NCBI RefSeq assembly: GCF_009389715.1
Contig: NW_024067666.1
Location: 1,219,001-1,283,000, forward strand
Direction of reading: 5' to 3'
DNA length: 64,000 nucleotides
From: Phoenix dactylifera
Taxonomy: Eukaryota; Streptophyta; Magnoliopsida; Arecales; Arecaceae
A program made the position numbers and the translations under genes. Under the pieces are notes generated by a model. It was not told the origin of the DNA. It saw nothing but the letters and a program-made list of their open reading frames with translations, and searched no databases. Positions within the stretch are counted from its first letter, which is position 1, and each line of letters begins with the position of its first letter. This document shows positions 2,863-52,880 of this stretch, piece by piece.

Positions 2863-3269
2863 TTCAAATTTGGCTCGAGGATGACCACGCCGGAGAAGTC
2901 GAGGAAGCCGCCGGTGGTTAGAAGAAGACGGGAGCCACCTTCTGCGCGGCGGTGGCGGAAGACCTGCACAAAGCCTCATCGGTGTTTCCGGTGAGGGCTC
3001 TCCGACAATCAAGTTAGAGTGGGGTAAATTTGGTCCAGCCAAAAAGTCCCTTAGAAGTTTTCTGACCGGGATATTTACAGTCCCAGTGGAGAGGCTCAGG
3101 TGGCAAAGGCACTGTCCGCCTTCATTATGAGAGGGGGCGTGGCTCTGAACCGAATGATGCGCAACTAAGGATGGTCGGTAGCATGTGGTGCTGTCCATTC
3201 TCAAGAACGATAAAGTGTCAACAGTCATAGCAAGGTATGGCCAGAGTAGTCATGGTGTTGTCCTTTGAC

Positions 3270-3480
3270 TAGGCCTGTTAACGAGCCGAGCCGAGCCCGA
3301 GCTTGGGGAGGCTCGGGCTCGGCTCGTTTCACAGAACTCGGGCTCGGGCTCGGTACCGAGCTCTGTATTAGGCTCGAGCTCGGGCTTGCTTGGCAAAGTA
3401 AAGGCTCGGGCTCGAGCTCGTAAAGCTCGTTTCAATTACGACCTCCTGAACGAGCCCGAGCTCGGGCTCGGTACGAGCTC
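3270..3480. repeat. hAT left terminal and subterminal repeats (GAGCCCGAGCTCGGGCTCG type)
   Basis: Many short direct and inverted copies of GAGCC/GGCTC and the palindrome GAGCCCGAGCTCGGGCTC crowd the first 210 bp. Such subterminal clusters are known as transposase-binding sites in hAT elements. The mirror set lies at 11975-12187. Confidence 0.8.
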
Positions 3481-4357
3481 GGTGGTCTATTTCTTGTTTC
3501 CTTGAAACAGCATAGAAATAATTTGAATAATTGAAGGCTCTTGAAAAAAGAGACAGAAGTACAAGAACACAATACACTGATAATTGTTAAGAATGTTGAA
3601 TTTTCACTCGCTTATAATCAATAATGGTAACCATAAAAGCATGTCTTACTCTGTAAGACAATCTCCTGTCTCTCATATTCTCATCTGCATTATGTATATC
3701 CTAAAATCCTTCAATGGAGGATTATTAGACAAGCCTGTGATGCATGACTATGAGCTACATCAGATCCTTAAAAGTAGCTTCATACAAACAATTATGCTCC
3801 ACAAACAGCTTGCATCCATGCAAGATCCCTTGATGTCCCACATCCATATATAGGGTTGTTACATGCGGAGGATGGTTAGTCTAAGTATGACAATCTTCTC
3901 ATTCACCACCAACCTAAACATAATGGGGGTTCAGCCTGCACTTTAGTTGGCTGGCAAAAATATTTGTATTTTTGAGATCAAGGGCATGAATCTGCTTCAA
4001 ATTGAAACCACTCACAGCTTCACAGAATCTTTGCTCTAGAGAATTCGATGGCACAAAGGCAATGACAATCAAAGAGAAGAGAATTTAACCACATCCAAGC
4101 ACAAAAGCAATGACAATCAAAGAGAATTTAAATGGTCCAAGTGTCGAAGTGAAACCCCGCCAAACTAAAAAACATCCAATACAAATCAAGTTCTACAAAA
4201 GAGTTCAAGAAGCACAATAAACATAATAAATCTCAAGTTCTCAAGTAATCTAGCTTAGACCAGTCTCTGTATTCCATTGCATAAACTCTTCATCAACCTG
4301 TAAATTAAACAAAAAACCAGAAATTATAAATTAAAAAACTAACTACTAAAAGATATA

Positions 4358-6404
4358 TTAAATACTATAAATGATACTTACATTTGATGACTGCTCCAAT
4401 CCAAGCTCATGATGCAACCAATCTCCAGTACAAATCAAAGCTTCTACAGTCTCAGGCTTCAAAGAGCTACGATATTGATCAAGCACTCTACCTCCAGCAC
4501 TAAATGCAGCCTCTGAAGCAACAGTAGTAATAGGAATGGATAGTATGTCCCGAGCCATCTTTGATAGAGTACGAAATTTTAGAGTGTTGGCTTTCCACCA
4601 ATTCAAAGCATCAAACTTGTCATAGTCTTCATCACCAGGCTTACAAATATCTTCTTCTAGATATATGTCCAACTCAGTTTTATTTGAAGGAATAACATTC
4701 CTATGTTGTTCAGCCCACATATGAAAGGCATGATTAGCCCTTCTTTTTCTTTTCAATTTGGAGGAGGTACTAGGGATATTGCTAGCATCAACATCTATTT
4801 GTCCATCTGAAGATACATATTCCTTGTAAAACATATCTAAAGCTTCATGAACATCATCAATATGGCGTTGAAAAACATCCTCACCATAAATTTTTGGAAA
4901 ACAAAATATAATGAGCTGCATTTTATAGCGAGGATCCAAAATTGCTCCAATTGCCATTAGTAAGTTACAGTCTCCCCAATACTTGTCAAATTTTTCATTC
5001 ATTCTTCGAGTCATGCGCATCACAAAATCTCTAGTATCGAGGACATATCATTTAATTTCTCCTTCACTCTCCAAATTTCATTAAGGAACAAATTTGAAGT
5101 TGGATATTGACGTCCTGAGAATACTTCTGTGACTTCATTAAAAACTTCCAAAAATTTTGAAACCTCTGTAGCTCGTATCCAGTCCTCCTCGGATGGTAAC
5201 CATTTATAGTTGGAGTCTCTTTCCTTGTACATTGGAAACACCGGTTTGAACTCCAATGCTGACTCTAGCATTTCATATGTTGAGTTCCATCGAGTAGGCA
5301 CATCAAGTTGAAGAATTTTAGAGGTTGACAACTTCAACTGTTTAACAATTTCAGTAAACTTATGAAGTCGTGAAGGAGACATCTTCAGATATTTCAAACT
5401 TTCGCGGATATTCTCAATTACATCCCGTATTTCTGCTAAACCATCTTGTACCATTAGGTTCAAAACATGTGCACAACAGCGAATATGAAATATTTTTCCA
5501 TTGAAGTAAAGCTTTCCTTTGATTGCAAAATTATCCCTCAAGACTTTGACCGCTGTGTCATTCGAAGATGTATTGTCTAACGTAATAGTAGAAACCTTAT
5601 CTTCAATCCCCCATTCAGTTAGACACCGAAGAATACAATCAGCAATAGCAATTCCCGTGTGGGGAGGTGCCAAGCTACAAAAGTTTAAAATTCTCTTTTG
5701 CAACTTCCATTCAGAATCTAAGAAATGTCCAGTGAGGCAAATGTACCCTATTGTTTGATTTGAGGTCCATAGATCAGTCGTTAAGCTAATTTTATCAACA
5801 TTTCTTAACATTGACCTCAACTTTTACTTCTCAATTGCAAACATTTTCATGCAGTCACTCCTTAAAGTAACCCGCTTTATTAGCTCAAATTTTGGGTTAA
5901 GAGCTTTACAGAATAAAACAAAGAACTGATGTTCCACCATCCTAAAAGGATACTCATGCACTATAAACATCTTTGCAAGAATCTCTCTTATCTTGTCTTT
6001 ATCATACTTGTAAGTTGCTAGCATTGCATGACCTTGAGTAACATCAAACGACAATAAGCTTTGTTTTAACTCTTTGTCTCCGCTAGACTTAAAAGTTTTC
6101 GAGGCATGCAAGCATTTAAATGTCTTTTGAGATGAGTTGTGGCACCCCCCTTCTTCCATGCTAATTTAGCACTACAATAATTGCATTTTGCCTTTGTGTT
6201 ACCATCTACTGTTACGATTTCAAATTCAGTCCACACCTCAGATCTCTTCCTCCTGTTTGGGTCATCCCAAGATTGTTCTATACCCATTTCTTTCATTTCA
6301 TCCATTGCATCATCTTTATCAAAAATACTTTCCAATTCAGCAAGTTCGTTTGCACTATAAGCTGTAGAGGCATGTTGATCGATTTCATGTTGGCCATTTG
6401 ACAT
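4358..6404 (-). pseudogene. hAT transposase (BED zinc finger, RICESLEEPER-like), broken
   Basis: Order on the minus strand: an N-terminal BED zinc finger with CNYC and HLKRHLNAC (about 6120-6250), the RNase H-like core (TDLWTSNQTIGYICLTGHF, DNTSSND, RCCAHVLNLMVQDGL, DVPTRWNSTYEML, 5020-5820), then the C-terminal dimerisation region (LNWWKAN, ARDILSIPITTVASEAAFS, 4358-5020). The set matches plant RICESLEEPER/DAYSLEEPER proteins of about 650-700 residues. The frame is disrupted near 6100-6160 (shift), at 5824-5826 (TAA in frame) and near 5030 (shift), so no full-length protein can be read. It is the element's own gene, not a domesticated copy, because it sits inside TIRs with a target duplication. 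Confidence 0.92.
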
Positions 6405-6784
6405 TTCTAGAAAAATATAAACAACCAGTCAAATTACATATTTAGTACATAAGCATGCCATACAAAGCCTATTTAAGGCCAAAACAAAACCAATCAAATT
6501 TAGATGCCAATTCATTTAAATACTTGAAAGCATAACATTCAACCCTCCTCTCAAGTCCCAAACACATTTTCATAAAAAAATAATAATAACAATAATAACA
6601 TATAAACAGAAACAATAAATAAAAGAAAGAGAACTAAATCAAATGATTTTTCTCTTTCTTCTCTCTAAGTGCATCCGGTTAGAGGAGCTGCCGCCTACCG
6701 AGCTGAGAAGTGAGGAGCAAAGAGATGAATGATGATGGACGGTGAGGAAAGTAGAGGAAACTCACACTACAAGAAAATTCATCT

Positions 6785-7172
6785 TTTCCGACGCTTTTTA
6801 TAATCTTTGCCGACGCTTATAAGCGTCGGCTAAAGTTCCCTCGACCTAAACAGAAGCGTCGCAAAAGCGTCGGCGATACCGGAGTGGCAAAAGTTTTTGC
6901 CGACGCTAAGATAAAGCGTCGGCAAAAACAGGGCTTCCCCGACGCTAGTAAAAGCGTCGGCAAAAACAACATTCTCCGACGCTTTAAAGCGTCAGGAAAG
7001 CCCAAAGCATACCCAGTTCTGGGTTTTCGCCGACGCTTTAAAGCGTCGGCAAATGTATCTTTCCCGACGCTTTTTTTTGCGTCGGCGTAGGCGTACAGTT
7101 TACCGACGCTTTAAAGCGTCGGCATAGGTGAGCCACAACTTTTATTTACCAACGCTTTAAAGCGTCGGGATT
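6785..7172. repeat. Left subterminal palindromes of the CACTA element
   Basis: About ten copies of a unit built on CCGACGCTTTAAAGCGTCGG occur here, some perfect palindromes and others separated by a few bases. A smaller inverted set lies at 11168-11310. Repeats of this kind are the binding sites of CACTA accessory proteins. The density of self-complementary units means this end can form cruciform or hairpin structures. Confidence 0.85.
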
Positions 7173-8150
7173 GCTATTTTTAAAAAAAATAAAAATACGA
7201 ATGTAAATAAAAATACGAACCTGTATTACAAACACTTCATGGTGCAGACTTGAACACTGATTACAAGATAAGAAATGTTTACAAAACTCATTATTTGTCT
7301 ACGTTCATGGTATCACACGACATACCTCTCTGCATTTTTATCCATCCACATAAAAAAGACCTAGACATAAAATCTAAAGCAGGATATTGACAACTCAATC
7401 ATTTACATTGATCAGGTGGGCTATGGATCTGTCACAAGCCACATAGCGTAGATAATATTGTCCTAGCTTCTTTTTTTTTCATTGCTAATCTTCTTGGAAA
7501 TCTAGAGCTTGTAAAGGTTATCCACATAGAAAAACAAATCCTCCCTAAACTGAAAATTGTTAATAGTCATAGATGATGCTTCTGAAACGAAACTGAACTG
7601 AAAGGAAAACAACAAATTCTAGTAAACTTGTGAGACTGATAACTGGACAAAAATTTTAATCTTGAACATATTATGATTCAGAATTCCAATAGAATAATAA
7701 TATGGCATGCTAAAGAACCAGACTGATACAAAAGGAATACAATGCCATGATCTAACCTAACATAGACATCCGGTAGTACAGCCAGGTTTGGTGCATCTTG
7801 GGCACAGGCGTACCTCTGTACATCTTGGACAGGATAAGATACAGCCACAGGAGTACTTAGGGCAGGAGAGGCTTGGAAGGACACAGCATGGTCTGGAGAA
7901 AGGAAACCCCCAACCACAACATTGTAGTTTGGAGCAGGGGAATCCCCAGCTACAACATTGTGGTTTGAAGCATGAAACACCCTGATTGCAGCAACACAAA
8001 CTGAAGCAGGAAAGCTCCAAGCAATTGCAACGCGGCCTGTAGCAGGAAACATGGTGAAGATCCAAACACTTCATGGTGAAAAATGTGAGATTATATTAGC
8101 AGTGCAGAAATACGGTGTAAATTAAGAAATCTAAAGTTTCAGCGGCAAAC

Positions 8151-8473
8151 CTGGTATTTTTGAACCATATCTTCATAGGAAGTAGGCAAAATGATAGGAG
8201 CACCATGGATGTTGAAAGGAATATTTTGCTTAGATAGCATCTCTCCAGGCTTTGGATTCCTTTAGGCAAAATGCCTAATTTGGAAAGAAATGTAGATTTC
8301 ATTAACTGGCTTGAGATAATTAAATGTACATGCACTGCAGCAAAGAACAGGCAAGAAATGACTACTAAGTTAAGAAAGAACAGACGTGGCACTAGGCATC
8401 ATTTAAACCATACACAATGTTTAAATATCTTTTAAGCTTTAGGAGTTGCAGAGCTAATGCATCAGGGCAATCA
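8151..8473 (-). pseudogene. Two unidentified captured exon-like segments in the CACTA element
   Basis: On the minus strand, 8400-8470 reads ADCPDALALQLLKLKRYLN after a TTTTCAG acceptor. The segment 8151-8259 reads NPKPGEMLSKQNIPFNIHG and ends YEDMVQKYQ at a donor-like CAG|GTTTGC. Both look coding rather than random, but I do not recognise the families. They lie downstream of the RGLG exons in the same orientation and may be from a third host gene. Confidence 0.35.
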
Positions 8474-8538
8474 GCCTGAAAAGCAAACAAGATGTCAAAA
8501 ACCACTAGAAAACCATATATGTAAATTAATTTATTTAC

Positions 8539-9680
8539 TTGTTTCTCTTCTAGAGAACTCTCTGATGGAATGGCTGACGCCCTTTTATGAACTCCAGCAC
8601 CTTGCTCCAAGCTGCTTGAGTGTGAGTATTTTGGATTTGAATATGATGAACCATTACTTTTAATTGGTGGAGGGAGAGCAGTCATTTCTGGTGTTCCTCT
8701 TCGTTTACTGGGGAACAAAAAGAAAATAACTTGAACAACAGAAACATTGTTTAATCAGAATCATGAATCAGAAACATCATCCTAATACCCCAAAAGTTGA
8801 AGGTCTATTATTGCTTTATATTGTGATGGGATTTCCATCAATGATGCAAGCGCGAACTCTGTCTCCTTTCTGCTGTTGGCAATATTTCTAGACATGATCT
8901 CTGTAAAGTTCACCAACTGCATAAAACCAAATCATAAAATGACCACTCTTCATATGCATAATTAACCGTAAATAATTAACAGTAAATATATGATTAAAAA
9001 ACAAATAAAAAGGCTTTACTATCTCAAATTAGTGCTATTTTATTGCATAAAATAAAAATCTATGGATAGGGAAAATAACAACGAAAAATTAAAAAGAGAA
9101 GCATCTTAAATAGCTGACCTGTCCATTTGCTATTATAAGAAGAACATGATATTGGCCACCACTATTATCTACAATGCCGATGGCTGTTTCAATTATTGGT
9201 GCAAAGGATGTTGGTCCTGTCAAGAAGGTCCAGAGTCATGACCAAATAGGAACTTCACAATGATCTATATGAGGTTGACAAAAAAATAGCATGTAAGTAA
9301 GAGCATCGTACAGACCAGCTAATCGAAGATGTGGAACTAATTCTTTATATCTTTGTAGTGCTTCCTCAAAGCCATTACATGGTCGGTTCTCTGGATAAAA
9401 ACTGAATACCTCCTGATCATGTGTGGATGCTGCAATATAGAAACAATAACAAGAATCCCCAGACAGTTTTAGAAAGGTAACCTTGAAATTTGTAGCAAAA
9501 TTAAGTAGACCTTTTTCTACAAGCTAGAGCGACACTAACCATCTCCGAATCCAAAGCAAGGAATAAGATTATCCTCATCAAAAGCAGATAGAGTTCTTCC
9601 AATAATTGATAATGCCTGCTCATATGGGTTTGGAGTATGCCCAATGTCATGCAAACATCGGCGGTTGAAAGAAACTCTGC
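8539..9680 (-). pseudogene. Captured fragment of an RGLG-type RING E3 ubiquitin ligase (copine/vWA domain)
   Basis: Five minus-strand exons with matching GT-AG borders: 9540-9680 (RVSFNRRCLHDIGHTPNPYE, GRTLSAFDEDNLIPCFGFGD), 9316-9429 (THDQEVFSFYPENRPCNGFE, LVPHLRLAG), 9119-9216 (GPTSFAPIIETAIGIVDNSG, HVLLIIANGQ), 8789-8916 (LVNFTEIMSRN, SRKETEFALASLMEIPSQYK) and 8539-8707 (KRRGTPEMTALPPPIKSNG). This is the copine/von Willebrand A core and following linker of plant RGLG ligases. The N-terminal part before the vWA domain and the C-terminal RING finger are missing, so no ligase activity is expected. Introns are kept, so capture was from genomic DNA, not mRNA. The exons read well, which suggests recent capture. 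Confidence 0.87.
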
Positions 9681-9989
9681 CTGGTAACAGTGTGGGATTC
9701 ACGAATGAGGATTTTAAAAGTTTCTAAGGCTAAACTTTACACAACCTTTTCTAAGATATGAATACCTAGCAGAAATACTGAGGTGGAAGTAATCAGCATT
9801 ACTTATAATTCTCTTTCTGTTTTACATTCTCTCCCATATATTATCCAAAAATCTAGAGCATGCAACAGGAATAGTCCATTCACGTACTAGTTCAAACAAG
9901 CATTATATAGATATTTAACTAGTGGAAAAAATCAGCTAATGCCACAGATAAAGTAGGATCCTAGACCTAATATAAAAATCTGTTGGTTG

Positions 9990-10894
9990 CTTCAGAAAGT
10001 TTGATTCTGGCAGTTTGATATAGCCTTTTCATATGCAGCATTTTCTTCTTGCAGAGTGGCAGCTCTTAATTGTGCCTACGGAAAATCTCAATGTTAAATT
10101 AGGTACATAAAACAAGAAGGTATGGGGGAAAAAAGAAACCAAAGTTATGCTCACGACAAGTTCTAGGCAATCGGTCCGGATGCAAACTATAGCAACAAAA
10201 ACGAACACGCAACGCAGAATAAGAAGCCGTAATCAAAATGAATGAAACCTGAATAAATGCAAAAGATTGATATGGCAGAACAATTGCTGATTTTATTTCC
10301 CGCATAATATTCAGATTGGTCTTTCCTTTTCACTTAAAGAATAATCTTTTTGAAGCGTTCTTGAGAATTCTTTGAATAACATAATTTTATCAACTAATCA
10401 CTCACACACACAGAGAGGGAGAGAGAGATCTGATGTTGTCCGATCCAATGCCCCAAAACCCAAATAAAGAAATTTAACGAAAGAAAGGCGTACATAGATT
10501 TCACGAGATCCCTACAAATGCAACAGAGTATACACGAAATTGAAAAGGGGGGATGGAATTAAATGGAATTTTGTATGGTATATAAATTGATTTGGGGAAT
10601 GGACGGAGGAGGGATCAGACATACTTGTTCTCGGGTGGCGGAGTGGGAGTTGAGTTGGAGGGCGAGGGCGACGTTGGAGGTGAGGGTGTGAGCGTGGAGG
10701 TGGGGGAGGCGCTGAGAGATGTGTGCGGGAGGTATCCGGAGCCGTAGATCCTGGATCGAGCGCCTCAGGGAGGCCGCCTTCTGGTCCAGCTCCAGCGCGT
10801 ACTGCTGCTGCTCCGGCGTGAACACCACAGGCAGCCGCTCCTCCTCCTCCTCCTCCCCGCCTGCCCGCTCCCTCCCACCACGTCCGCCGCCCAC
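9990..10894 (-). pseudogene. Captured 5' exons of a plant coiled-coil protein
   Basis: The exon at 10625-10894 reads (minus strand) an acidic run, then LPVVFTPEQQQYALELDQKA, SIQDLRLRIPPAHISQRLPH and ends HSATREQ at the donor CAA|GTATGT. The next exon begins after CGTAG at 10075 and reads AQLRAATLQEENAAYEKAIS, then loses the frame near 10000. Heptad-like, charged sequence suggests a coiled coil. The family is one I only recall as uncharacterised in plants. Placed immediately upstream of the RGLG exons and in the same orientation, it would supply the 5' end of a chimeric transcript if the element were transcribed. Confidence 0.6.
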
Positions 10895-12654
10895 CTGCAA
10901 TAAAATGCCGGAGAGGAGGAAGGAGGAGCGGAGCTTGCCGTCGGACGTCGCTCGACGCCGGAGAGCACAGGGGTCGGCCGCTCGTCGTCGGAGAGGAGGG
11001 AGGAGGAGAAGACCTTTCCGTCGGACGTCGCTCGGCGCCAGAGAGGACAAGGGTGGGCAGTTCGTCACCGGAGAGGAGGAAGGAGGAGAGAAGCTGAGGC
11101 TTGAGATCGGGATGCAGAATGAGGAGGGGAACGGGCCGCTTGTTTTTTGTTGTGAATTTGAGTTCTGACGACGCGTATATGCGTCGTCTTATGCCACAAT
11201 CTACCACGACGCTAATTAGCGTCGTCTATGCCCGACGCTTTTAGAAAGCGTCGACATATATTGGGGCTGGACCGAAAATCGCCGACGCTTGTAAAAAGCG
11301 TCGGCAAAAAAGGGTCGGTAAAACCCCATTTTCTTGTAGTGTCACCAGCAACAGCAAGTCGGGGTCGGGGAGCAGCGCCGCAACAAGTCGGGGTCGGAAG
11401 TCACCGGGTCGGGGAAGGTCTGGGAGGTCACCAGCGGGCAGCAACGGGGGTTTGGAGGGCGAGAGGGGTTTGGACTTTAGAGGGGTTTGGAGCGCGAGAG
11501 GGGTTTGGACTTTGGAGGGAGGCAGGGGTGAAGGGGGGTTTGAAGGGTGTGGGGGGTTTGGAAATTGGAGGGGGGGTTTCGGAGGGTGGTGCTGTCTGTG
11601 GAGTCAGGGACTGAGACGGCAGTGGACGGTGGTGAAAGGAGGAGGCAGAGGGGTTTCAGCCTTCAAGCCTTCGAATCTTCGATTCGAACCACCGAAGAGC
11701 AGAGCTAGGTGGAGCCGGGCGGGATTGGGGGAGAGCGCCGCCGTCGGGGAAGGGGATCGGGATTCGGGGGAGAGCGCTACCGTCGGGGAAGGGCTGGGAG
11801 AGACAGAGAGTGGGAGTGGCCAGTGGGAGACTAGGGCATCAGGCTGTTTGCCTCTTTCCTTTGGTTTCGTTTGGGCATTTGAGGGTTGAGGCTTTGAGCC
11901 GAGCGTGGGACTGGGCCTGGGCGTGGGCCCGCCGGCTGGGCCTAGGAGTCTCACACAGCCACACTCTCACTACTCACTAGAGCTCGTTTGGGCTCGTGAG
12001 TTGCTCGGGCTCGAGCCCGGGCTCGAGCTCGAGTGTAAACGAGCCTCATGTTCGAGCCCGGGCTCGAGCTCGAGTGTAAACGAGCCTCATGTTGGGCTCG
12101 GGCTCGGGCTCGTTTCATTAACGAGTCGAGCCCGAGCCGGGCTTTTACCGAGCCGAGCCCGAGCAGCTCGGCTCATTAACAGGCCTACCTTTGACTGTCG
12201 AGGGCCAGCTATCAAAACATGGCACGGTGGCGTTGTAATGTACAGCCACGTACGAAGGCGTGCGTACACACATGGGTGCAGTTGTTGGCGAGGCTGAACC
12301 CGTCGAAAGGTCGCATCATGCTTTTGGCGAGGTCGGCTAGACGGATGCTGAGGGCACCTCGGCTCCCTGAATTTCGAGGTGTGCTCGGTAGAGCGCCCTG
12401 AGCTCGAGGGTCGGAGCGTACTACTGAAGTGGGCGCCCTGAGCTCGGTCGGAGCTGGTCGGCGAGTATTGGAGACGCCCGAACTTGGTCGGACGAATCAG
12501 CAAATATCTGAGGCCGATGGAGCTTTTGGCGGAGTTCGAGGCCGAGCTGATTTTGAGCCGGTCCGAGGGTTCAATCGGTCGGTGTTGGCGTTTATTGGGC
12601 CAAAACTAGACGGCCTTTTAGTTGTGGGCTGGACGATCCATTTCGCCCCTCATC

Positions 12655-18258: not shown

Positions 18259-18456
18259 AAAGGTTAAACAAGAGTCCTGTCAGAGCAATAGGGTGAGTTA
18301 GGATTAAGTATAGGATTATACTATGGAGCATAGGATTTTTCTGTATATTAATTTATGAGTCATTTACAATTCAGTAAAATATATTATGGCTCTGTGTAAC
18401 GACTGTCCTCTCTTTTTGACTCTTTTAGAGACATATAAAGAATACTTCCAAGGAGA

Positions 18457-21400
18457 ATGGAGCCAGATATAGCATTGGATGCGGGTTCCGCACATGTCGA
18501 GCCCCAAAGAGAAAAATCTCCTCCTGCTGATAGACGGAGGGTTGATGATCAAGGAGAGGTAGGAAGTAGAGATGCATTAATGGAACAGTTACTGGCAGAG
18601 AATCAGGCTCTGAGAGAGCAGATTGCTCGGGGGAAATCTCCTGCCCCGTCAGTAGTATCCATCCCACCTCCTGTAGTTGTGCCAAGAAGTTTGGCCAGGC
18701 GGGCTCTAGATGATGAGGGGATTACTGTACAGGAATTTCTGAGGCTCAGAACCCCAGAGTTTAAGGGGGAAGAAGGTGAAGATCCTCAGAGATTCCTGGA
18801 GGAGACTGAAAAGATGATACGGAGACTGCCCTGTTCTGATGCAAGGGCAATAGAACTTGTAGGGCTCACAATGAAAGAAGATGCCTGGGGCTGGTACCAG
18901 AGGCACGTGGAGGACAGATTGTACAGTAGGAATCCTCCAACCTGGGAAGAGTTCAGGCAAGCAGTGATGGATGAGTTTTTGTCTCCGGCTGAGAGGCAGA
19001 ATCGGGCTCTTCAGTTTGAGAGGCTGAAGCAGATGCCCGGAATGAGCGTATCTGAGTACGCTCGTGAGTTCACTAGATTGGGGAAGTATGCTTCTTACAT
19101 CATCCCCACTGAAGCTGCCAGGATAGAAAGATTCAGGCGGGGTCTGATTTCCCCGCTTTATAATGCAGTACTGGCAGTAGAGGTCCCCACCTTGTCTAGG
19201 CTGATTGATTAGGCAAAACAGTGGGAGATCAGAAACAAAGAGGAAAGGGCTGAAAGAGAACAGAGGAAAATGAGTAAGGGGAAAGGGCAAAGCAGCCGAG
19301 GTAGATCTGAGGGAGCAAGTCTCCCGGAGGGCCCGACAGAGCAGTCTGTACGCTCAGCTCCACCTGCCCCACGTAAGAGGAAGTGGAGGAGAAGAGGTCA
19401 GTCACAGGATGCTTCTTTACCATTAGCACCTCGTCCTCCGGTCACTATGGCCAGAACTGAATCTAAGTTCCAATCATGGCCAATGTGTGGCATATGTGGG
19501 AAGCAGCACCCTGGCAGATGCAGAATGGGTCAGGGAGTGTGCTACAGATGTGGACAGCCGGGTCATTTTGTCAGAGAATGCCCGCAGGGTGCCACCCAGC
19601 AGTTTGTGCCTTTAACATCCTACCCTTCTGTGCAGATGGACAGGCCTAGTAGTAGGGGGCCTGTAGGCAGAGGCAGAGGTCAGACACCAACGTCACAGCA
19701 GAGTGTTGGACCATCTCAGCTGTTAGCTCCAGCAGGCAGAGGGCAAGGAAGGGTGTTCACGGTAAATCCACAGGAGGCACAGGCATCAAATGCAGCTGTG
19801 ACAGGTATGCTCCTCATTGATAAGATTAAAGCTAGAGTGTTATTTGATTCTGGAGCTACCCATTCATTTGTGTCCCCTTATTTTGCTAAAAAGTTAGCTA
19901 AGGATAAGATATTGATGCATATTCCCTTAGTTATTAGCACACCTATAGGGGATAGTATAGAAGTGAGATATGTGTATCCTACCTGTGTGGTAGAGGTAGA
20001 AGGTAAGACACTCCCAGTCGATTTGATTGAGTTGGCAGTGTTAGACTTTGATGTCATACTGGGCATGGATTGGTTATCAGACAATCGTGCCACCATTAAC
20101 TGCCAAGAAAAGAGTGTTATCTTCAGACCTTTAGATAAGGAAAAATTTACATATCAAGGGGATAGGAGTGAGATCCCAATGAATTTAGTGTCTGCAGTAA
20201 AAGCAAAGAGGCTGCTGAGAAAGGGGTGTCAAAGCTATCTAGCTTATGTGATGGACACCCAGGTAGAGTCTGTGGATCTGCAGCAGATTCTAGTTGTTAG
20301 GGAGTATCCTGATGTATTTCCAGGAGAATTACCAGGATTGCCACTTGATAGAGAAATTGAGTTCAGTATTGAACTTCTTCCTGGTACAAACCCTATATCG
20401 ATTGCTCCCTATCGTATGGCACCTACAGAGCTGAGGGAGTTGAAGGTCCAGTTGCAGGATCTGCTAGACAAGGGGTTTGTTAGGCCCAGTACATCACCAT
20501 GGGGTGCCCCAGTTCTGTTTGTGAAGAAGAAGGATGGATCGCTGAGATTATGTATAGATTATAGACAGCTGAATAAAGTGACCATCAAAAATAGATACCC
20601 ACTCCCCAGGATAGATGACCTGTTTGATCAATTACAAGGGGCTGAGTACTTCTCGAAGATTGATCTGCAGTCTGGGTATCATCAGTTAAAAATCAGAAAG
20701 GAAGATATATTGAAGACTGCATTCAGAACGAGATATGGGCACTATGAGTTTCTAGTGCTTCCATTTGGGCTGACAAATGCCCCAGCAGCATTCATGGATT
20801 TGATGAATAGGGTCTTTAAACCCTATCTTGACAGATTTGTGATAGTCTTTATAGATGATATCCTCATATATTCTAAGAGTCAGGCTGATCATGAAGAGCA
20901 TTTGAGGATAGCACTACAAACCTTGAGAGAACATGAATTGTATGCCAAACTTACCAAATGTGAGTTCTGGCTACAAGAAGTTGGATTCTTGGGACACATA
21001 ATATGTAAGGAAGGAATCAGGGTGGATCCCAAGAAGATTGAGGCAGTTATGGATTGGCCGAGACCAACAAATGTAACAGAAATCAGGAGCTTTCTGGGTC
21101 TGGCTGGGTACTATAGGAAGTTTGTAAAGGACTTTTCAAAAATAGCTACCCCATTAACAAAGCTGACTCGGAAGCAGGTTAAGTTCACTTGGACAGATTC
21201 TTGTGAACAGAGCTTCCAGAAGCTGAAAGATTGCCTCACATCAGCTCCAGTTTTGACTCTACCCACAGATACAGGCGGATTTGTAGTCTACTGTGATGCT
21301 TCTAAAGTGGGATTGGGATGTGTGTTGATGCAGAATGGCAAGGTGATTGCATATGCATCCAGACAGCTAAGAAAGCATGAAGTAAACTATCCCACTCATG

Positions 21401-23190
21401 ACTTGGAAATGGCTGCTGTCATATTTGCACTAAAGATATGGAGGCATTATTTATATGGTGAGAAATGTGAAATATATACTGATCATAAAAGCCTCCAGTA
21501 CATTCAGCAGCAAAGAGATTTGAATCTCAGACAGAGGAGATGGATAGAGCTGTTGAAGGATTATGACTGCCAAATCCTGTATCATCCGGGCAAGGCTAAT
21601 GTAGTAGCAGATGCATTAAGCCGGAAGTCAATGGGCAGTTTATCTCACATCTCCATCCAGAGGAGAGAGATAGTCAGAGATGTGGCAGATTTATTTGCTC
21701 AGGGACTATCTTTTGAGTTATTAGAGGTTCGTCCTTTGATTGCACAGTTTCAGGTGAAACCGAGGTTGATAGATGAAATCAAAGTTTCACAGGATTTAGA
21801 TCCAATCCTTGTGAAACTGAAAGGAGAAGTGCAATCAGGACAGTCAAAAAGGTTTCAGATTGTAGATGGAATGTTGAGGTGTGGCAGTAGGCTATGTGTG
21901 CCAAATGTGGAAGATCTGAGACAGAGGATTATGCATGAAGCACACAATATTCCCTATAGCATTCATCCTGGTTCCACTAAAATGTATCATGATATCAAAG
22001 GCATATATTGGTGGAACGGATTAAAAAGGGATGTGGCCAAATATGTGGCTTCTTGTTTGACTTGTCAACAAGTGAAATTTGAACATCAGAAGCCAACAGG
22101 GCTTTTGCAAGAGTTACCTTTGCCCGAGTGGAAATGGGAAAGGATAACTATGGATTTTGTGGTCGGGCTGCCCAGAACACAAAAAGGATATGATTCCATC
22201 TGGGTGATTGTGGATAGATTGACAAAATCAGCCCATTTTCTACCGGTGAAAATCACATATTCAGTAGCTCAGTATGCCGAAATATATGTGAATAAAATAG
22301 TATCTCTGCATGGAGTGCCAGTTTCTATTATATCAGATAGAGGTTCACAGTTTACCTCTAGATTTTGGCAGAAACTCCATGAGGCATTAGGAACTCAGTT
22401 TGATTTCAGTACAGCATTTCACCCTCAAACAGATGGGCAATCGGAGAGGACCATTCAGACCCTCGAGGATATGCTCAGAATGTGTGTACTGGATTTCAGA
22501 GGTAGCTGGGACAGATACTTACCTTTAGTGGAGTTTGCATATAATAACAGTTATCACTCCACTATTGGTATGGCACCTTATGAGGCACTTTATGGGAGAA
22601 AATGTAGATCTCCCTTGTGCTGGTCTGAGATTGGAGAGAAGCACCTAGAAGGACCAGATTTGATCAGAGAGACATCAGAAAAAGTGCCAATGATACAGGA
22701 AAGGTTGAGGACAGTGTTCAGTAGGCAGAAGAGCTACTCAGATGTCAGAAGGAGAGATGTGCAGTTTGGCACGGGGGATCACGTGTTCCTAAAGATCTCT
22801 CCTATGAAAGGGGTAATGAGGTTTGGAAAGAGGGGCAAGCTTAGTCCCAGATACATTGGCCCCTTTGAAATATTAGATAAAGTTGGCAATGTATCTTACA
22901 GATTAGCACTGCCTCCAAACCTCAGCCATGTGCATCCAGTATTCCACATATCTATGCTCCGGAAGTATGTGCCGGATCTATCTCATGTGCTATCAGTGCA
23001 GGAAGTTATAGTAGAAGAAGATCTTTCTTATGAAGAACTTCCTGTCGCTATTCTTGATACTCAGATCAGGAAGCTGAGAAATAAGAAAATATGTATGGTA
23101 AAGGTCCAATGGCACCGGCACAATGTTGAAGAATGCACTTGGGAGTCGGAGCAAAGTATGAAGAGCAAATACCCTCACCTCTTTGAGTAA
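18457..23190 (+). CDS. Element B gag-pol coding region
   Basis: Parts in order: gag domain ([20 protein letters not shown]), CCHC zinc knuckle ([15 protein letters not shown]), aspartic protease ([12 protein letters not shown]), reverse transcriptase ([10 protein letters not shown]), RNase H ([18 protein letters not shown]), integrase with HHCC and DDE domains ([47 protein letters not shown]), and a C-terminal chromodomain-like segment ([20 protein letters not shown]). The chromodomain and the 3-kb LTRs place it in the Tekay lineage. The region is almost fully open, with about one break. Confidence 0.92.
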
Positions 23191-23245: not shown

Positions 23246-26200
23246 TGTAATAACCCCAAAATTTTTTTCTATATAAAAAGGGATAGAATAGTCCTTTAAA
23301 ATTGATATAAGGGGTAAAATTGGAAGGAATCAAAAGATAATGGCATAGTTGTAGATATGTTGAAGTGTTAGGGGCAAAATGGGAATTTAATAATATTAAA
23401 CAAAGGTGAATAGTGCTTTGATGTGATTTAAATGGGGTGGTTGGTGGCTCACGGGAATGAAGCAGAGAGAAGAAAGGGAGGGGTTCTCAGGCGACAGAGA
23501 GGAAGAAAAAGAAGAAGAGGAAAGGAAAGGAAGAAAGGAAGAGGAAGAAGAAGAAGAAAAAGAAAGGGAAAGAAATCCCGGGTGCACTTCCAGCTAAAGG
23601 AAAAAAATGTAGATCTCCTTTTCCTCTACGCAAGGACCTCGATTTCCAAAAAAAGAAAAAGGTAAATATCCGTCCCTACCTAGTCTTTTGATGATATTAG
23701 GCTATACAAAGGGTGGATGTAGTCTAGAGGGGTCAGATAAGGGTTGTAGAGGTGGTTAAAAGAGAAAGAATCGGATTTCGACAAATTTTTCCGGCACTAC
23801 GGAAAAACTGTGTCGAAGTCCCAACTTCGGCGAATTATTTAGGGGGTCAAACGGCCTCCGATGATGATGCATGTTATCTCTTTGGAATCCTCTATGAGTG
23901 TAGAATGTTAGGTAAAAATTTCATCAAATTTGGAGTCCTGAAAGTGGATCAAAATCGGGATGAAGTAACCCACTGTCAGTTCGGGTTACTGTTCATCTGG
24001 GTGGAAAATAGGGGATTTCATGCTATAATAGAGTATTAAGCTTAGATCAAGCTAAAAGGGACCTTGTACTCATGCAAAGGAGTCCCTAATACACATAAAT
24101 GGTGAGTTAATTAATTAAAAAGAAAAAGAAGAAAGAAAAGAAAAGATTTAGGGAACAGGGGAGTTGAATCAATTAAAATTCCCTATGTTATAATTGGCAC
24201 GTAGATTATAGCCCTTGATACAAGACTAAATGTATTGTAAATGCATGTCACAGTTGGGCAAGAAGCTAGGGAACAAAAGGAAGAAGTTTCCCACTGCCTG
24301 CTGTAGATTTTTGGAGGCGTATCAGGGCTGTGCCGGATTGACAGGTGAGTGGGAGTCATGTACTTTGCACTATGAGCATCCTTAATTCATTTTCATGAAT
24401 GTCGCCAAGTGTGAATTGATTCCACTTGAGCATATTGATTGATATTGTAGTAGATTCCTCTATAATCTTGATTCTCCATGCTTGATTATTCTGTACATGC
24501 ATTTGAGGGAACATTGAGAGGAATTACGAGGGGTTGATGAGTAATCAAATTGATTCCGAATTGTGAAATGATTTCTTTTGTAAATTGATTTCATTTCCTC
24601 CATTTTAAAGACTTGTGAGTCGTAGCTTGATTATACTCTTTTATGAGTAATTAAATTGGTTCCAAATTGTGAAATAACTTCTTTTGTAAATTGATTTCAT
24701 TTCCTCCATTTCAAAGATTTGTAGAGCCTTCTTAGTGGTATATTGAGTTGTATTGCACTTCCTTGACCCTCACTCCTAACCCTGATGTTAGTTTATGATT
24801 GGGTCATGATCGAGTGAGTGGTAGTCTTGATCATACTCCTTTTTAGTAGAGTATTGGGAGGGTGCATTATGGCATTTATGCATGGCTTGGCAGTATCTGC
24901 AGGACACCTATAGTCGATGGGGTTGAACATCGGCCTTTGTGCACATAGTAGCCTTCTGGGTGGGCGGAACCCAGTCCCTTCCTAGGGGGGACACGGCCCT
25001 AGGCGTAGGATCGGCCGGTCCTACGACTTATATTCTGCTTGCCGCCGGGCATAGTAAGACCCCGCGAGGTGCAGTATGGCTTTCCGCGGATGTAGAATTC
25101 CCGCGAGGTGCCGTTTAGTATATAGATGTGAGAGGGATTTCTGTCCTGGATACTGGCCAGCATTTACATTATCAGTATGGTGTCTTATTCTGCATATGCA
25201 TGTGACCGTGAGGAGTTGTTGCTGGTTCGCCTGGGGCGTAAAACCCACCTTCCGACAGCTGTCTAGCATTTATATTATCAATATGGTGTCTTATCCTGCA
25301 TATGCATGTGACAGTAGGGAGTTGTTGCTGGTTCGCCTGGGCGTAAAACCCACCTCCCAACAGCTGTCTAGTGATGATTTACATATTGGTGTGGTGTCAT
25401 ATTCGATGTGTTTATATGGCAGTAGGGAGTTGTTGCTGGTTCGCCTGGGGCGTAAAACCCACCTCCCGATAGCTGTCTTGTTGATGATTCAGCCTATTGA
25501 CACCTGATTTATATGATTCAGTACTATGACCTATTGAGCATATTCATGGGTAGCATATATGATTACTTGATTATTCCATATGTGCTCCAGATGTGTTGAT
25601 TGGGATTGTGATGATTCACTTCATATTCTCTATATTGAGTTCATGTTCATCTTGTTATTGATCTTGAGATTTTTCATCTCGAGCCATGATTATATTCTGT
25701 CTCATGTGCATAGTACTCTCTACTCCACTCACTGAGTATTTATATACTCACTCCCCATTTTGGTGTTTTTGATTGCAGGGCAGGTATTGTATAGAGAAGA
25801 GCAGGGTTAGAGATTGCCTGCTAGCTGTGCCGCTCTATAGTATAGTATAGTATAATGTAGATAGAGGTTTATACCTTTTGGTGTATTATAAACCTTCTAT
25901 TGTATATAGTGCATAGTTACAGTCATAGATCCTATTGTGGATATGGGTTTGACCATGGATGGATTGGGAAGCAGGTATATATATATGTGTGCAGATCAGT
26001 TGTGTGCCTGTGATAATGTATTGCTATATATTGTCCAGGTTTATTATGTGACAGATTATGTGATTGCTGCTCTGACAGGTAGTGTGTTGTATGTATTGAG
26101 ATAATCCTGACAGGTCACTATAGGAAAAGTGATCATTTTGTGCATGTATCATGCCAAATTTTTCAAGATCTATTGATGATTGATAGGTAGTAAGGTTCTA

Positions 26201-26282
26201 CGCGGTGGCTGGTGGCCTTATGCCTACCCGCACCCTAGGACCGTCGCGGCAGCCCGCCGGGAATGGGGCGGGGGTCGTGACA
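23246..26282 (+). repeat. 3' LTR of element B
   Basis: It has the same length as the 5' LTR (3037 bp) and about 99 percent identity by eye. It ends GTGACA, immediately followed by the CCGGC duplication and the resumed coding sequence of element A. Confidence 0.95.
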
Positions 26283-29200
26283 CCGGCGAAGAACCACGGC
26301 GCCCCGCGCCCTCGTTCTCCGCCCCGACGTTTCAACCGGTACACCCCTCTCCTGACTCCCCGGGCCCAGATCCTTATGGAGATCAAGGGGCGGGAGGACC
26401 TCCCGGCCCCGAGACAGATGCGGAGGATACCTGGGAAGAGGCCCTCCCGGGCGTATTGTGAGTACCATCGAGACCACGGCCACGACACAGAGGACTGCTT
26501 CCAGCTTCGGGACGAGATCGAGGCTCTCATCCGTCGGAGGCGTCTCGGTCGATATGTGAGCGACCGACGTCCCCCCGCAGACCCGCGTCCGGCCGACCCG
26601 GCTCCTCCGGAGCCTCGGGAGCAGAATCGACCCGTTGCGGGCGTGATCCACACTATCACTGGGGGCTGCCCCCGGCCCGTGAGGAACGCAGGGGGCTCGA
26701 CGGAAGCGTCAGGGGCGGCCGTCGCAAAGAGGCAGAGGGTCGGCAATGTAATCACCTTTTGTGATGAGGATGTAAAGGGGGTTCAGACCCCCCACGATGA
26801 CGCCATGGTGATCTCCCTCACTATGGCAAACTATGATGTAAGGCGTGTTCTTGTGGATAGTGGAAGCTCAGCTGATATCTTGTTTTACGAGGCCTTCCAA
26901 AAGATGGGCTTGTCCAGACAATTGTTGCACAAAATATCCACCCCCCTCATAGGATTCACCGGTGACGCTGTCCCGGTGGAAGGTGTCGTTGAGCTGCCTG
27001 TGACTGCGGGCGTCGCACCCGCAGAAGCCACGGTGCGACTCGGGTTCTTGGTCGTCCGTGTTCCCTCAGCCTACAACGCTATCCTCGGACGACTCGGACT
27101 GAACGCCCTTCGCGCGGTGGTCTCTACGTACCATTTGCTCATGCGGTTCCCAACGGCGGTCGGGATCGGGGAGGTCCGAGGCGACCAACCGACCGCACGG
27201 CAATGTTTCCTAGCGACCCTCAAAGGGAAGAAGCCCGCAGAAGCCCTAAGCGTCGAGTCCCTTGATGCCAGAGACGAGGTGGCCTTGCGGCAGGGGGAGC
27301 CGGCCGAGGGTGTGGTCGAAGTTCCCCTCGAGGAAGGCCGCCGGGACCGGGTGGTCCGGGTCGGCGCCAATCTCGACCCGGGAGCTCGGGCCCGGTTGGT
27401 GGAATTCCTCCGAGCCAATGCCGATGTATTTGCCTGGTCGGCGGCCGATGTACCTGGGATCGGCCCGGAGGTCATTTCTCACGCCCTCAACGTCGACCCG
27501 ACCCACCGGCCAGTGAAGCAGAAGAAGAGACACTGTGCCCCGGATCGGATCCGGGTGGTCGACCAGGAGGTAGACAAACTCTTGGAGGCAGGATTTATAA
27601 GGGAGGTGAGTTACCCCGAGTGGCTGGCAAATGTTGTACTTGTCCGGAAGGCGAGCGGGAAGTGGAGGATGTGCGTCGACTATACCGACCTGAACAAGGC
27701 GTGCCCAAAGGATAGCTTCCCGCTTCCACGGATAGACCAACTGGTCGACGCGACTTCCGGATATCAGCTGCTGTCTTTCATGGACGCCTTCTCCGGTTAC
27801 AACCAGATAATGATGGCCCCACAGGACGAGGAGAAAACTGCCTTTATAACGGACCGGGGGCTGTACTGCTACAAGGTAATGCCCTTCGGTCTGAAGAATG
27901 CTGGCGCCACTTACCAGCGCCTCGTCAACAAAATCTTCAAAGAGCAAATCGGCCGGAACATGGAGGTGTACGTGGACGATATGCTGATGAAGAGCCGCCA
28001 GGCAGACCAGCACATCGCGGATCTGGAGGAGACTTTCACCATCTTACGGAAGTTTCGCATGAAGCTGAACCCAGCGAAGTGCGCCTTTGGCGCTTCGGCC
28101 GGGAGGTTCCTTGGTTTCATTGTCAACCAGCGGGGTATCGAAGCCAACCCGGACAAAATCAAGGCCATCCAAGGTATGTCCCCTCCGACCAAAGTAAAGG
28201 AAGTTCAGGAGCTCGCTGGAAGGGTCGCCGCACTCGGACGATTTGTGGCAAAATCAGCCGAACGCTGCCAACCATTCTTCAAGGTGTTAAAACGCCCGAA
28301 AGACTTCCTCTGGACGGCCGAATGTCAAGCAGCGTTCGACCAGCTCAAGGAATACCTGGCGTCTCCTCCCCTGCTATCCAAGCCGCAGGAAGGGGAGATG
28401 CTCTACCTCTATCTGGCGGTCTCCCCAACCGCGGTCAGTGCGGTGCTGGTTCGGGAAGAGGCAAAGCTCCAGAAGCCTGTGTACTACATCAGCCGGGTCC
28501 TACGGGACGCCGAGACGCGGTATACGAAGGCTGAAAAGATCGCCTTCGCGCTGCTGACCGCAACCAGGAGGCTCCGCCCCTATTTCCAGGCCCATTCTGT
28601 CACCCTCCTAACTGATCAACCGTTACAACAGATCCTCAGCAACCCCGAGAATGCGGGACGGCTGGTGAAGTGGGCAGTAGAACTCGGTGAGTTCGACATC
28701 CGCTACCAGCCTCGACCCGCCATCAAGGCCCAGGTGCTCGCGGACTTCCTCGCTGAGTGCACGGTGCAGGAGGCGGAACCTAGACCGCCGGAAACGCCCA
28801 GCCTCGACCTCCCGACCTGGACGCTTCACATCGATGGGTCGTCGAACCCCGAGGGTGGAGGGGCCGGGCTGGTCCTTACCAGTCCTGATGGAGTGATAGC
28901 CGAGTATGCCTTGAGGTTTGGATTTCCAGTTACCAACAACGAGGCGGAATACGAGGCCCTAGTCGCGGGATTCAAACTCACCGGGGAGCTCGGCATCCGG
29001 CGTTTGAAGGTCTTCACTGACTCCCAGCTGGTGGTCGGGCAGGTCCGTGGGGAGTTCGAGGCCCGGAGCCCGACCATGCAGAACTACGTCCGGAAGGTGC
29101 AGGCACTCATTCCCGACCTCGGCAGTGTCGACATCCAGCAGGTCCCCAGAAGCGAAAATGCCAGGGCCGACAGGTTGTCCCGCTTGGTGGGCGCAGAGGT

Positions 29201-51500: not shown

Positions 51501-52880
51501 ATTCCTTTCTCCCGGACCCAAGACCAAGCAAACTTATATCACCCATTTTGAGTGATCTCTATAAATCCTGTTGCTTTGTCAAGATTTTTAGTTTCATACT
51601 TTGGCCTCTCCTGTTATTTTAACTGCCAATTAAATCACTCCCCACCTTTTTTCTCAGCCCAGATTAGGAGCCATGCAGAGGCAGTGCCATTCCATGATAG
51701 CCTTAAATATCATTTATTAATCTATTGCTTTTCTGAACTTTCATAAGTTTCTTAACAGGTACGAAAGCGAGATGTTGTCTTAAAAGTTTCAGGATCGGAA
51801 ACTGATATTCCATGGGGAGCCTTTGTGAAAGTCAAACAAATGCAGAACAGTTTCCCCTTCGGATCATGTATCAATCGAACGAACATAGATAACGAGGACT
51901 TCGTCGATTTCTTTGTAAAGAATTTCAACTGGGCAGTGTTCGGCAATGAGCTCAAGTGGTACTGGACAGAGCCACAGCAAGGAAATTTTAACTACACTGA
52001 TGCTGATGAGCTCTTGGACTTGTGTGAGAAGAATGGGATAGAGGCTAGAGGCCACTGTATCTTCTGGGAAGTCGATGGCGCTGTCCAGTCCTGGGTTAAG
52101 TCTTTAAACAATAATGATCTAATGACAGCCATTCAGAACCGGCTGAACGGTCTACTCACGAGGTACAAGGGCAAGTTCAGACACTATGATGTGAACAATG
52201 AGATGCTTCATGGTTCTTTCTATCAAGATAGGCTTGGAAAGGAAAAGAATATCAGAGTTTACATGTTTAAGACTGCCCATCAGCTGGATCCCTCTGCCAC
52301 CCTCTTTGTGAATGATTACCATGTGGAGGATGGAACTGATACTAGAGCTTCTCCTGAGATGTATATAGAGCAAATCCTTGGTCTCCAAGACCAAGGTGCA
52401 CCAGTTGGAGGAATTGGAATACAGGGGCACATAGATAACCCAGTTGGGCCAATTGTATGCTCTGCATTGGATAAGATGGGGACACTTGGTCTTCCAATCT
52501 GGTTTACTGAACTGGATGTCTCATCAGACAATGAGTATGTTCGAGCCGACGACTTGGAGGTTATGCTTCGGGAGGCCTACGCACACCCTGCAGTAGAAGG
52601 CATCATGCTGTGGGGATTCTGGGAGCTGTTTATGTTCCGGGACAATTCGTGCTTGGTTAATGCTGAAGGTGACGTTAATGAAGCTGGTATGAGGTACCTG
52701 GCTTTGAAGGAAGAGTGGCTATCTCATGCGCATGGTCACATCGACGATCAAGGAGAGTTCAAATTCAGAGGCTTTCATGGCACCTACACTGTCGAGATCT
52801 TCACCTTAACAAAGAAGTTATCTCAGAAGTTCACTGTGGACGAAGGGGATTCTCCTCTGGTAGTGAACATTGACTTATGA
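48560..52880 (+). CDS. XYN1: Endo-1,4-beta-xylanase, GH10 with two CBM22-like domains
   Basis: Five exons read without a break: 48560-48598, 49418-49767, 49933-50110, 50961-51497 and 51759-52880. All have GT-AG borders and matching phases, giving about 741 residues. Exons 2-3 form one CBM22-like carbohydrate-binding module (NPHFDDDLNNW, ERTQNWNGIQQEITG). Exon 4 forms a second (NNSNLSDGLNGWFPLG, NRTQTWMGPAQTITDKLEL). Exon 5 is the GH10 barrel with the acid/base Glu in YDVNNEMLHG (about E516) and the nucleophile in WFTELDVSS (about E619). The family cuts the xylan backbone in plant cell walls during wall remodelling. Arabidopsis XYN1 has more CBM repeats, so this form is shorter. The start gives a 13-residue exon 1 (MADKQSSSAGAYE) without a signal peptide. 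The true start could differ. Confidence 0.93.
48695..48720. repeat. (TC)n microsatellite in xylanase intron 1
   Basis: An uninterrupted run of about 13 TC units lies in the first intron, just 3' of the short first exon. Confidence 0.85.

Follow-up and report, generated by a model that had tools for sequence, protein, structure and literature searches.

This study addresses the question of how pieces of several host genes came to lie head to tail at one locus of the date palm, Phoenix dactylifera, and whether their combination is likely to have a function. The locus is part of a 64,000-bp stretch (C19:1219001-1283000 of a 773-Mb assembly with 2,391 contigs) that is referred to below as the window; contigs are given as C numbers and other fetched stretches as L numbers. 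Our analysis indicates that the pieces, which belong to four host genes, very probably form the interior of a Pack-CACTA element, i.e., a non-autonomous CACTA transposon presumably moved by the transposase of other elements, and that, taken by itself, the locus is most probably a non-coding mosaic of an ordinary kind. Because four donors, sister elements bearing subsets of the pieces, and junctions at base resolution are available in one genome, models of gene capture become testable against each other.

A scan of the window detected exact copies of CACTACAAGAAAA at 6765-6777 on the plus strand and, in inverted orientation, at 11329-11341 on the minus strand; with up to one mismatch allowed, the window contains three matches versus 0.08 expected. 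The terminal inverted repeat (TIR) comprises 36 nt with 81% identity, and the element is bordered by a 3-bp target-site duplication (TSD; Table 1). In sister elements, for which only end pairs with matching duplications were listed, the 3-bp TSDs were CGT (L023), ATA (L024), and AGA (L038). The joined flanks of the element matched C103:505498-505761 with 98% identity over positions 2 to 265 of 270, across the joint, and this sequence is a relative of the host hAT transposon without the CACTA insertion. Both ends contain CCGACGCTTTAAAGCGTCGG-type subterminal palindromes throughout, together with direct and inverted subterminal repeats (families D1 and D3, plus several inverted pairs, some inside one end and some linking the two), and the RIGHT end module has a GC content of 0.65 at 10900-11099. 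CACTA-type terminal repeats, a 3-bp TSD, and direct and inverted subterminal repeats assign the element to the CACTA superfamily, and host gene sequence within a CACTA element without a transposase match assigns it to the Pack-CACTAs; no Transposase_21 match was present in the window among the best 150 of 534 candidates. The conserved ends in many copies are evidence of past movement only.

Between the ends lie four gene pieces whose closest donors are located on four separate contigs (C7, C9, C687, and C8), with 96 to 99% identity over 442 to 974 bp; these matches are far above chance. Read in gene sense from the right end, the order is coiled-coil, RGLG, SCC2, and G-gamma, all on the minus strand, and the assigned exon edges carry GT at 7/7 5′ splice sites and AG at 8/8 3′ splice sites. 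An initial annotation of the DNA had proposed that a CACTA element had captured at least two host genes and that exons of a coiled-coil gene and of an RGLG gene lie head to tail on one strand with their splice sites kept. Both proposals were borne out, and alignment to the parental loci located the donors of these two pieces on C7 and C9, respectively, and mapped the breakpoints. The captured RGLG piece also lacks the RING as had been stated, since donor exons 10 and 11, present in the C9 donor, are absent. The interval given at the time, 8151-10894, does lie inside a CACTA element, but the element actually extends from 6765 to 11341, and a fourth piece, the G-gamma one, lies outside that interval. 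Exons and introns were kept in their layout, except that coiled-coil exon 2 is truncated and donor exons 6 and 7 of RGLG are deleted. Two exon-like segments that had been left without a name are present and correspond to C-terminal exons of SCC2. A single donor gene as the source of all pieces was rejected, as the closest donors on four other contigs speak against it; another locus with the full exon order of the 2,744-bp interval was not found among the best 40 of 58 candidates scored in the genome, where only the window matched.

Table 1. Features of the CACTA element and its surroundings (positions in the window)
Feature	Position	Strand	Remarks
Complete non-autonomous CACTA (Pack-CACTA) element (very probable)	6765..11341 (4577 bp)	.	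Ends, TIR, TSD, uninterrupted relative
Left TSD, TCA	6762..6764	.	
Right TSD, TCA	11342..11344	.	
Constant LEFT end module	6765..7208	+	TIR and subterminal CCGACGCTTTAAAGCGTCGG-type palindromes
Constant RIGHT end module	10892..11341	-	TIR, subterminal repeats, GC-rich part, 80-bp tandem repeat
Coiled-coil gene piece	10005..10894	-	Donor C7 (L012), 96.3%
Coiled-coil exon 1	10625-10894	-	Without start codon
Coiled-coil exon 2	10005-10075	-	Truncated by junction; no 5′ splice site assignable
RGLG piece	8513..9998	-	Donor alignment from 8519; donor exons 3, 4, 5, 8, 9 of 11
RGLG exons	9540-9680, 9316-9429, 9119-9216, 8789-8916, 8539-8707	-	
Donor exon 6 deletion junction	9025..9029	.	CAAAT overlap (5 bp)
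Donor exon 7 deletion scar	8961..8970	.	Window only; filler resembles adjacent AATTAACAGTAA
SCC2/Nipped-B C-terminal piece	8056..8512	-	Exons 8395-8475, 8151-8259; donor C687 (L027), 98.0%
Type-C G-gamma piece	7352..8052	-	Last exon (cysteine-rich tail) and 3′ flank; donor C8:29394414-29395114 (L029), 99.0%
Open frame of 105 amino acids	7757..8074	-	Starts in SCC2 intron sequence, spans cysteine-rich G-gamma tail
Short segment adjoining G-gamma piece	7209..7351	-	
hAT element hosting the CACTA insertion	3270..12187 (including insertion)	-	8-bp TSD, transposase domains

The junctions of the pieces show overlaps of 0 to 7 bp or short filler. SCC2 and RGLG are joined via an overlap of 6 to 7 bp (AGAAAA), and the coiled-coil piece joins the RIGHT module via 3 bp (CAC), 3 nt beyond the CAG of the module. 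The junction between RGLG and the coiled-coil piece, which occurs in the window only, has 2 to 3 bp with mismatches, and a 3-nt filler separates G-gamma from SCC2. No CACTA end sequence was found between the interior pieces, which abut directly, and no match to the LEFT or RIGHT module was found near the four donors on C7, C9, C687, and C8, where approximately 3 to 5 kb were examined per side.

Genome matches of the LEFT and RIGHT modules were scored for the best 40 of 1,012 and the best 40 of 572 candidate places, respectively, and the window and 17 other stretches, which are part of a larger CACTA family, were combined in a mosaic map. The LEFT and RIGHT modules were constant across the 18 stretches, and the interior was variable. 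RGLG was found in 12 stretches (L026 additionally contains an RGLG stub of about 50 bp), SCC2 in 9, the coiled-coil piece in 6 (with L013 and L030 representing one element), and the G-gamma piece in 3; all four together were present in the window only. RGLG starts at donor position 5090 in 11 of the 12 stretches, with L017 starting further in, and the same start was found in both RGLG-bearing members of a second sample of eight more fetched family stretches outside the mosaic map. Three stretches of the second sample contain SCC2 starting at donor position 4219, as in the non-window line, and the coiled-coil boundary lies at donor position 5497 in all five stretches that reach it. Such shared boundaries are most simply explained by a single capture of each piece and its subsequent spread. 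Elements with RGLG and without SCC2 retain a 231-bp inner left module, and SCC2-bearing elements outside the window line retain 89 bp of it; SCC2 replaced only the inner 142 bp. The AGAAAA joint of SCC2 and RGLG is common to L021, L022, L026, and the window. Elements L013/L030 and L014 contain SCC2 and the coiled-coil piece, with RGLG not detected in them. L023 and L024 have the G-gamma/SCC2 junction of the window but carry a receptor-like protein kinase piece in the RGLG slot, between the SCC2 and coiled-coil pieces (4515-6608 in L023 and 2939-5032 in L024). The window thus joins captures that are otherwise distributed over separate lines, a pattern suggestive of exchange among members of the family. 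L024 further contains a 3.4-kb insert inside the coiled-coil exon (5397-8753), whose frames by eye resemble hAT transposase.

The short overlaps and fillers at the junctions fit error-prone repair with template switching, which we regard as a reasonably likely capture route. Double-strand gaps in family members would have been repaired by copying other chromosomal sites, and template switches guided by microhomology would have added one or a few pieces in each event. Later on, internal stretches would have been deleted and family members would have exchanged sequence. RGLG would then probably be the oldest layer, with SCC2 inserted beside it; the coiled-coil piece would have arrived via another SCC2-bearing line and G-gamma last. 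A different route is offered by the tandem-insertion model of Catoni et al. (2019), as described in the accessible parts of PMC8903248 and PMC13317346, in which two family members insert on either side of a gene piece and later move together as a single hybrid element. According to these parts, unchanged ends around new internal DNA are expected under the model, in agreement with the constant outer modules and the variable interior of our family, and multi-locus capture is reported in the accessible part of PMC8903248 for Pack-CACTAs of maize. However, the pieces abut without intervening CACTA end sequence, the examined surroundings of the four donors contain no module match, apart from a single bare CACTACAAGAAA match in L027, and SCC2 took the place of inner left-module sequence and was joined to RGLG via the short overlap described above. 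Tandem insertion alone leaves the direct joining of pieces from four chromosomal sites unexplained, and we consider it a viable but not very likely route. An assembly artefact or chimeric contig was considered because the assembly consists of 2,391 contigs. No support for it was found. The TSDs match, the flanks have an uninterrupted relative, and some of the junctions recur in sister elements on other contigs (the RGLG/coiled-coil junction being confined to the window), which leaves this explanation with practically no probability.

The individual pieces differ in how much of the parental gene was kept. The coiled-coil piece retains intron 1 between its two exons, and a Pfam search with the coiled-coil gene gave no match above the cut-offs. 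The RGLG donor on C9 (L009 and its inverted copy L010) has eleven exons matched by an RGLG2-like probe, including both RING exons (10 and 11). Identity to L009 was 98.6% for the part with exons 3 to 5 and 96.2% for the part with exons 8 and 9, and the spliced RGLG exons matched Pfam Copine (2.8e-46). Lacking donor exons 1-2, 6-7, and 10-11, the RGLG of the element has an incomplete vWA/copine domain and no RING. The deletion of donor exon 6 is common to all eight mosaic-map stretches that span the junction, and a larger gap across this exon was observed in L035 and L036 of the second sample. As the loss of exons 6 and 7 keeps the phase, RGLG exons 3-4-5-8-9 still splice in mutual frame. The RGLG donor itself is part of a 7.4-kb inverted duplication, the two copies of which are 98.9% identical and about 30 kb apart (C9:265000-274999 and C9:297000-306999).

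The SCC2 piece presumably derives from the C-terminal part of this gene, a name that we base on adjoining Pfam Nipped-B_C matches at homologous SCC2 copies (C687:82942-83211 and C19:3256702-3257359) and on the C-terminal sequence of SCC2. L027 and L028 on C687 are tandem, apparently partial SCC2-like copies, and one of the L027 copies lies near a gene of the NB-LRR resistance type (NB-ARC, 5.3e-47). The fourth piece contains a G-gamma stop codon at 7757-7759. Within the short segment next to it, positions 7241-7296 are 84% like a G-gamma paralogue region on C11 (L031), whereas the C8 donor stretch (L029) contains nothing that matches them. A rice DEP1 N-terminus probe matched C8:29411775-29411894 (E value, 1.4e-11), 16 to 17 kb upstream of the donor sequence and on the same strand; a second match, which contains one TGA, precedes the paralogue on C11 by about 11 kb, and a third match was found on C6. 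From this probe and a cysteine-rich signature, we take the piece to be part of a type-C G-gamma gene. Pfam searches with the SCC2 tail and the cysteine-rich tail gave nothing above the cut-offs, and a Pfam G-gamma search gave no useful match, with one sub-threshold match elsewhere.

It had been suggested that transcription of the locus would yield a chimeric RNA with a coiled-coil N terminus fused to a vWA/copine domain without RING. A protein of this kind might, for instance, counteract RGLG as a dominant negative. The single orientation of the pieces, the retention of most splice sites, and the mutual frame of RGLG exons 3-4-5-8-9 agree with such a chimeric gene. However, upstream the coiled-coil frame stays open as far as 11188 but contains no methionine, and exon 2 reads AISNCQNQTF and is followed by a TGA a few codons past the junction. 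Coiled-coil exon 1 ends in phase 0 and RGLG exons 3, 4, and 5 begin in phase 1, and splicing of the former to any of the latter is therefore out of frame. In 521 splice models with the transcript start fixed at 11160 and assigned splice sites only, the coiled-coil exon was never part of a frame beginning with ATG; an open frame without a start running from the coiled-coil piece into RGLG was obtained in 16 models and reached only exons 8 and 9. The longest ATG frame found comprises 184 codons (RGLG exons 8 and 9 plus SCC2), and its first part is out of the RGLG frame; SCC2 exon 8395-8475, the frame of which enters a TAG, has no assignable 5′ splice site. With the missing vWA exons and RING exons in addition, we infer that the element would encode no coiled-coil-vWA protein; the chimeric gene, already largely refuted by features of this kind, appears extremely improbable. 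The comparison of nonsynonymous and synonymous changes, proposed as a check for constraint, gave no sign of it in the RGLG exons: all seven window-private changes there are nonsynonymous, which at an expected proportion of 0.77 without constraint is not unusual under drift, although with so few changes weak constraint is possible. Coiled-coil exon 1 has a 1-bp frameshift in the window that is absent from the four sequences compared. The captured exons thus appear to drift without clear purifying selection, and any effect on the plant would be exerted via RNA.

Two further functions were weighed. The element might express the G-gamma tail alone, as a cysteine-rich protein of 105 amino acids that interferes with G-protein signalling. 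Its frame is intact with an ATG from SCC2 intron sequence, both changes relative to the donor are synonymous, and the G-gamma/SCC2 junction is shared with L023 and L024. However, other ATGs precede the frame in SCC2 exon 8151-8259, and two changes are little to judge from, so that such a protein seems very improbable. Alternatively, the element might be a source of small RNAs or of a decoy RNA that dampens the parent genes. Silencing of the parent RGLG gene had been suggested as well, and the sequence would permit it. Many 21-mers of the element are identical to the parent locus, namely, 179/297 in the coiled-coil exons, 346/550 in the RGLG exons, 111/150 in the SCC2 exons, and 534/681 in the G-gamma piece. 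Seen from the presumed promoter end, however, all pieces lie in sense, and antisense RNA would therefore require transcription from the opposite end; we consider this role improbable.

Several observations weigh against the reading of the locus as a drifting Pack-CACTA mosaic assembled by repair. No CACTA transposase could be linked to the family, as none of the best 150 of 534 Transposase_21 candidates lies within 20 kb of the listed ends. Seven nonsynonymous changes out of seven arise under drift about one time in six. Relative to L009, RGLG exons 3 to 5 are changed at 1 of 358 sites versus 13 of 616 in the intervening introns, and both changes in the G-gamma tail are synonymous; these figures could hint at constraint, part of which is explained by constraint on the donor branch. 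The capture order rests on presence or absence of pieces in the fetched copies, a sample of a larger family. Gap repair is deduced from sequence, leaving the published tandem-insertion model viable at the low probability given above, and the C687 donor stretch L027 contains the bare CACTACAAGAAA match at position 2008, with no family module adjoining.

All nine of the identified family captures lie in sense if the RIGHT end is taken as the 5′ side. In addition to the four genes of the window, these are pieces of a UDP-glycosyltransferase (L021; Pfam, 3.5e-17), an HpcH/HpaI aldolase (L026; 5.7e-11), a mitochondrial carrier (L034/L038; 9e-19), an ENT-domain protein (L039; 3.7e-14), and the protein kinase of L023/L024. 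Pfam matches were obtained for 7 of 15 sense frames from sister elements (five genes), compared with 0 of 23 antisense frames inside elements and 0 of 2 in L041 that are probably outside the element; the frames were chosen by eye from longer lists rather than by an exhaustive scan, and sense frames without a Pfam match in L015 and L036 that look like gene pieces were left uncounted. The idea of such a pattern came from the four genes of the window and from the first sister elements, and it was then followed in the eight stretches of the second sample, which added two captured genes, the mitochondrial carrier and the ENT-domain protein. A coin toss would place the five non-window captures all in sense in 1 of 32 cases, and nine of nine corresponds to a two-sided value of 2 in 512 that includes the cases which prompted the idea and refers to a small, partly post hoc sample. 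In the window, the order of the pieces also follows their parental rank, from first exons via internal exons and C-terminal exons to a last exon with its 3′ flank.

In the four copies read without the coiled-coil piece, the inner edge of the RIGHT module resembles a splice donor, with CAG/GTGAGT in L015, L016, and L019 and GAG/GTGAGT in L011; in the coiled-coil line (window, L013, L014, and L024), it reads CAG/GTGGG. The RIGHT module may therefore be a leader exon with a promoter; a GC-rich untranslated first exon is also present in maize Spm. As a tentative and rather doubtful proposal, the family may be a directional exon-assembly platform in which a GC-rich leader exon and a splice-donor-like end are combined with captures that are kept only or mainly in sense. 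A bias to transcribable arrangements, if real, might result from selection or from a capture route coupled to transcription. If the sense-only pattern holds genome-wide, it would bear on whether exon shuffling by such elements is random or yields transcribable arrangements.

Multi-gene chimeras on DNA transposons are also known from Pack-MULEs and gene-carrying Helitrons, which have different ends and machinery; the ends of the present element, in contrast, are those of CACTA. Elements of both kinds are named in the accessible part of PMC1947982, which describes what appears to be the closest precedent, Tgm-Express1 of the soybean wp allele (Zabala and Vodkin 2007). According to this text, Tgm-Express1 is a CACTA element of 5.7 kb with five host gene pieces and is located in an intron of the transcribed F3H gene, its pieces being spliced into chimeric cDNAs. 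The two elements are alike in class, in size (5.7 versus 4.6 kb), in their exonic and intronic pieces, and in the number of unrelated host genes (five versus four). As far as that description goes, they differ in that Tgm-Express1 sits in a transcribed gene, whereas the present element sits in a hAT transposon, and in that donors, sister elements, and the likely capture order are visible here. Pack-CACTA or Pack-TYPE elements of Arabidopsis, rice, and maize, as presented in the accessible part of PMC8903248, share with our element CACTACAA-type ends, host gene DNA, the lack of a detected internal transposase, constant ends with a variable interior, and several loci per element; direct short-overlap junctions without end remnants and sense-only captures in our sample set it apart. 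An orientation bias of the captures is not reported in that part of PMC8903248, where the orientation figures refer to neighbouring insertions. Captured host gene fragments are likewise described for the Chenopodium CACTA element Jozin in the accessible part of PMC8978399, in comparison with which no transposase coding sequence was found in the present element. Gene-carrying CACTA elements are thus already known, and the present case contributes a pedigree that can be read and the orientation pattern; among the best 15 of 68 papers listed in the open-licence literature, no title concerns CACTA gene capture in date palm.

The hAT element into which the CACTA element inserted is flanked by the 8-bp TSD CCTTTGAC at 3262-3269 and 12188-12195. 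Including its TSDs it spans 3262-12195 (8.9 kb), and the CACTA element lies between the hAT right end and the transposase frames. The latter (open reading frames within 4358-6428) matched the Pfam families Dimer_Tnp_hAT (5.8e-31) and zf-BED (8.3e-07) and are co-directional with the captured genes; transcription from a hAT promoter into the captures is conceivable in principle. Among the listed matches, the Transposase_21 matches nearest to family ends lie inward of two LEFT ends, one on C4 and one on C8, at a distance of 26 to 28 kb (C4:2495436 and C4:2523447; C8:13220137 and C8:13247019) and on the would-be sense strand; these pairs may belong to large autonomous elements with nested insertions or may be coincidental. 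At C681:134222-174611 and C1020:48357-90738, a LEFT and a RIGHT end of the family are about 40 kb apart; these may be either very large or heavily nested elements, possibly two assemblies of one locus. Elsewhere in the window, long frames of the gag-pol type of long terminal repeat (LTR) retrotransposons were recognized by eye at 18439-23190 and 26187-30527, and a glycosyl hydrolase family 10 gene that also encodes a CBM_4_9 carbohydrate-binding domain has exons at 50901-52880.

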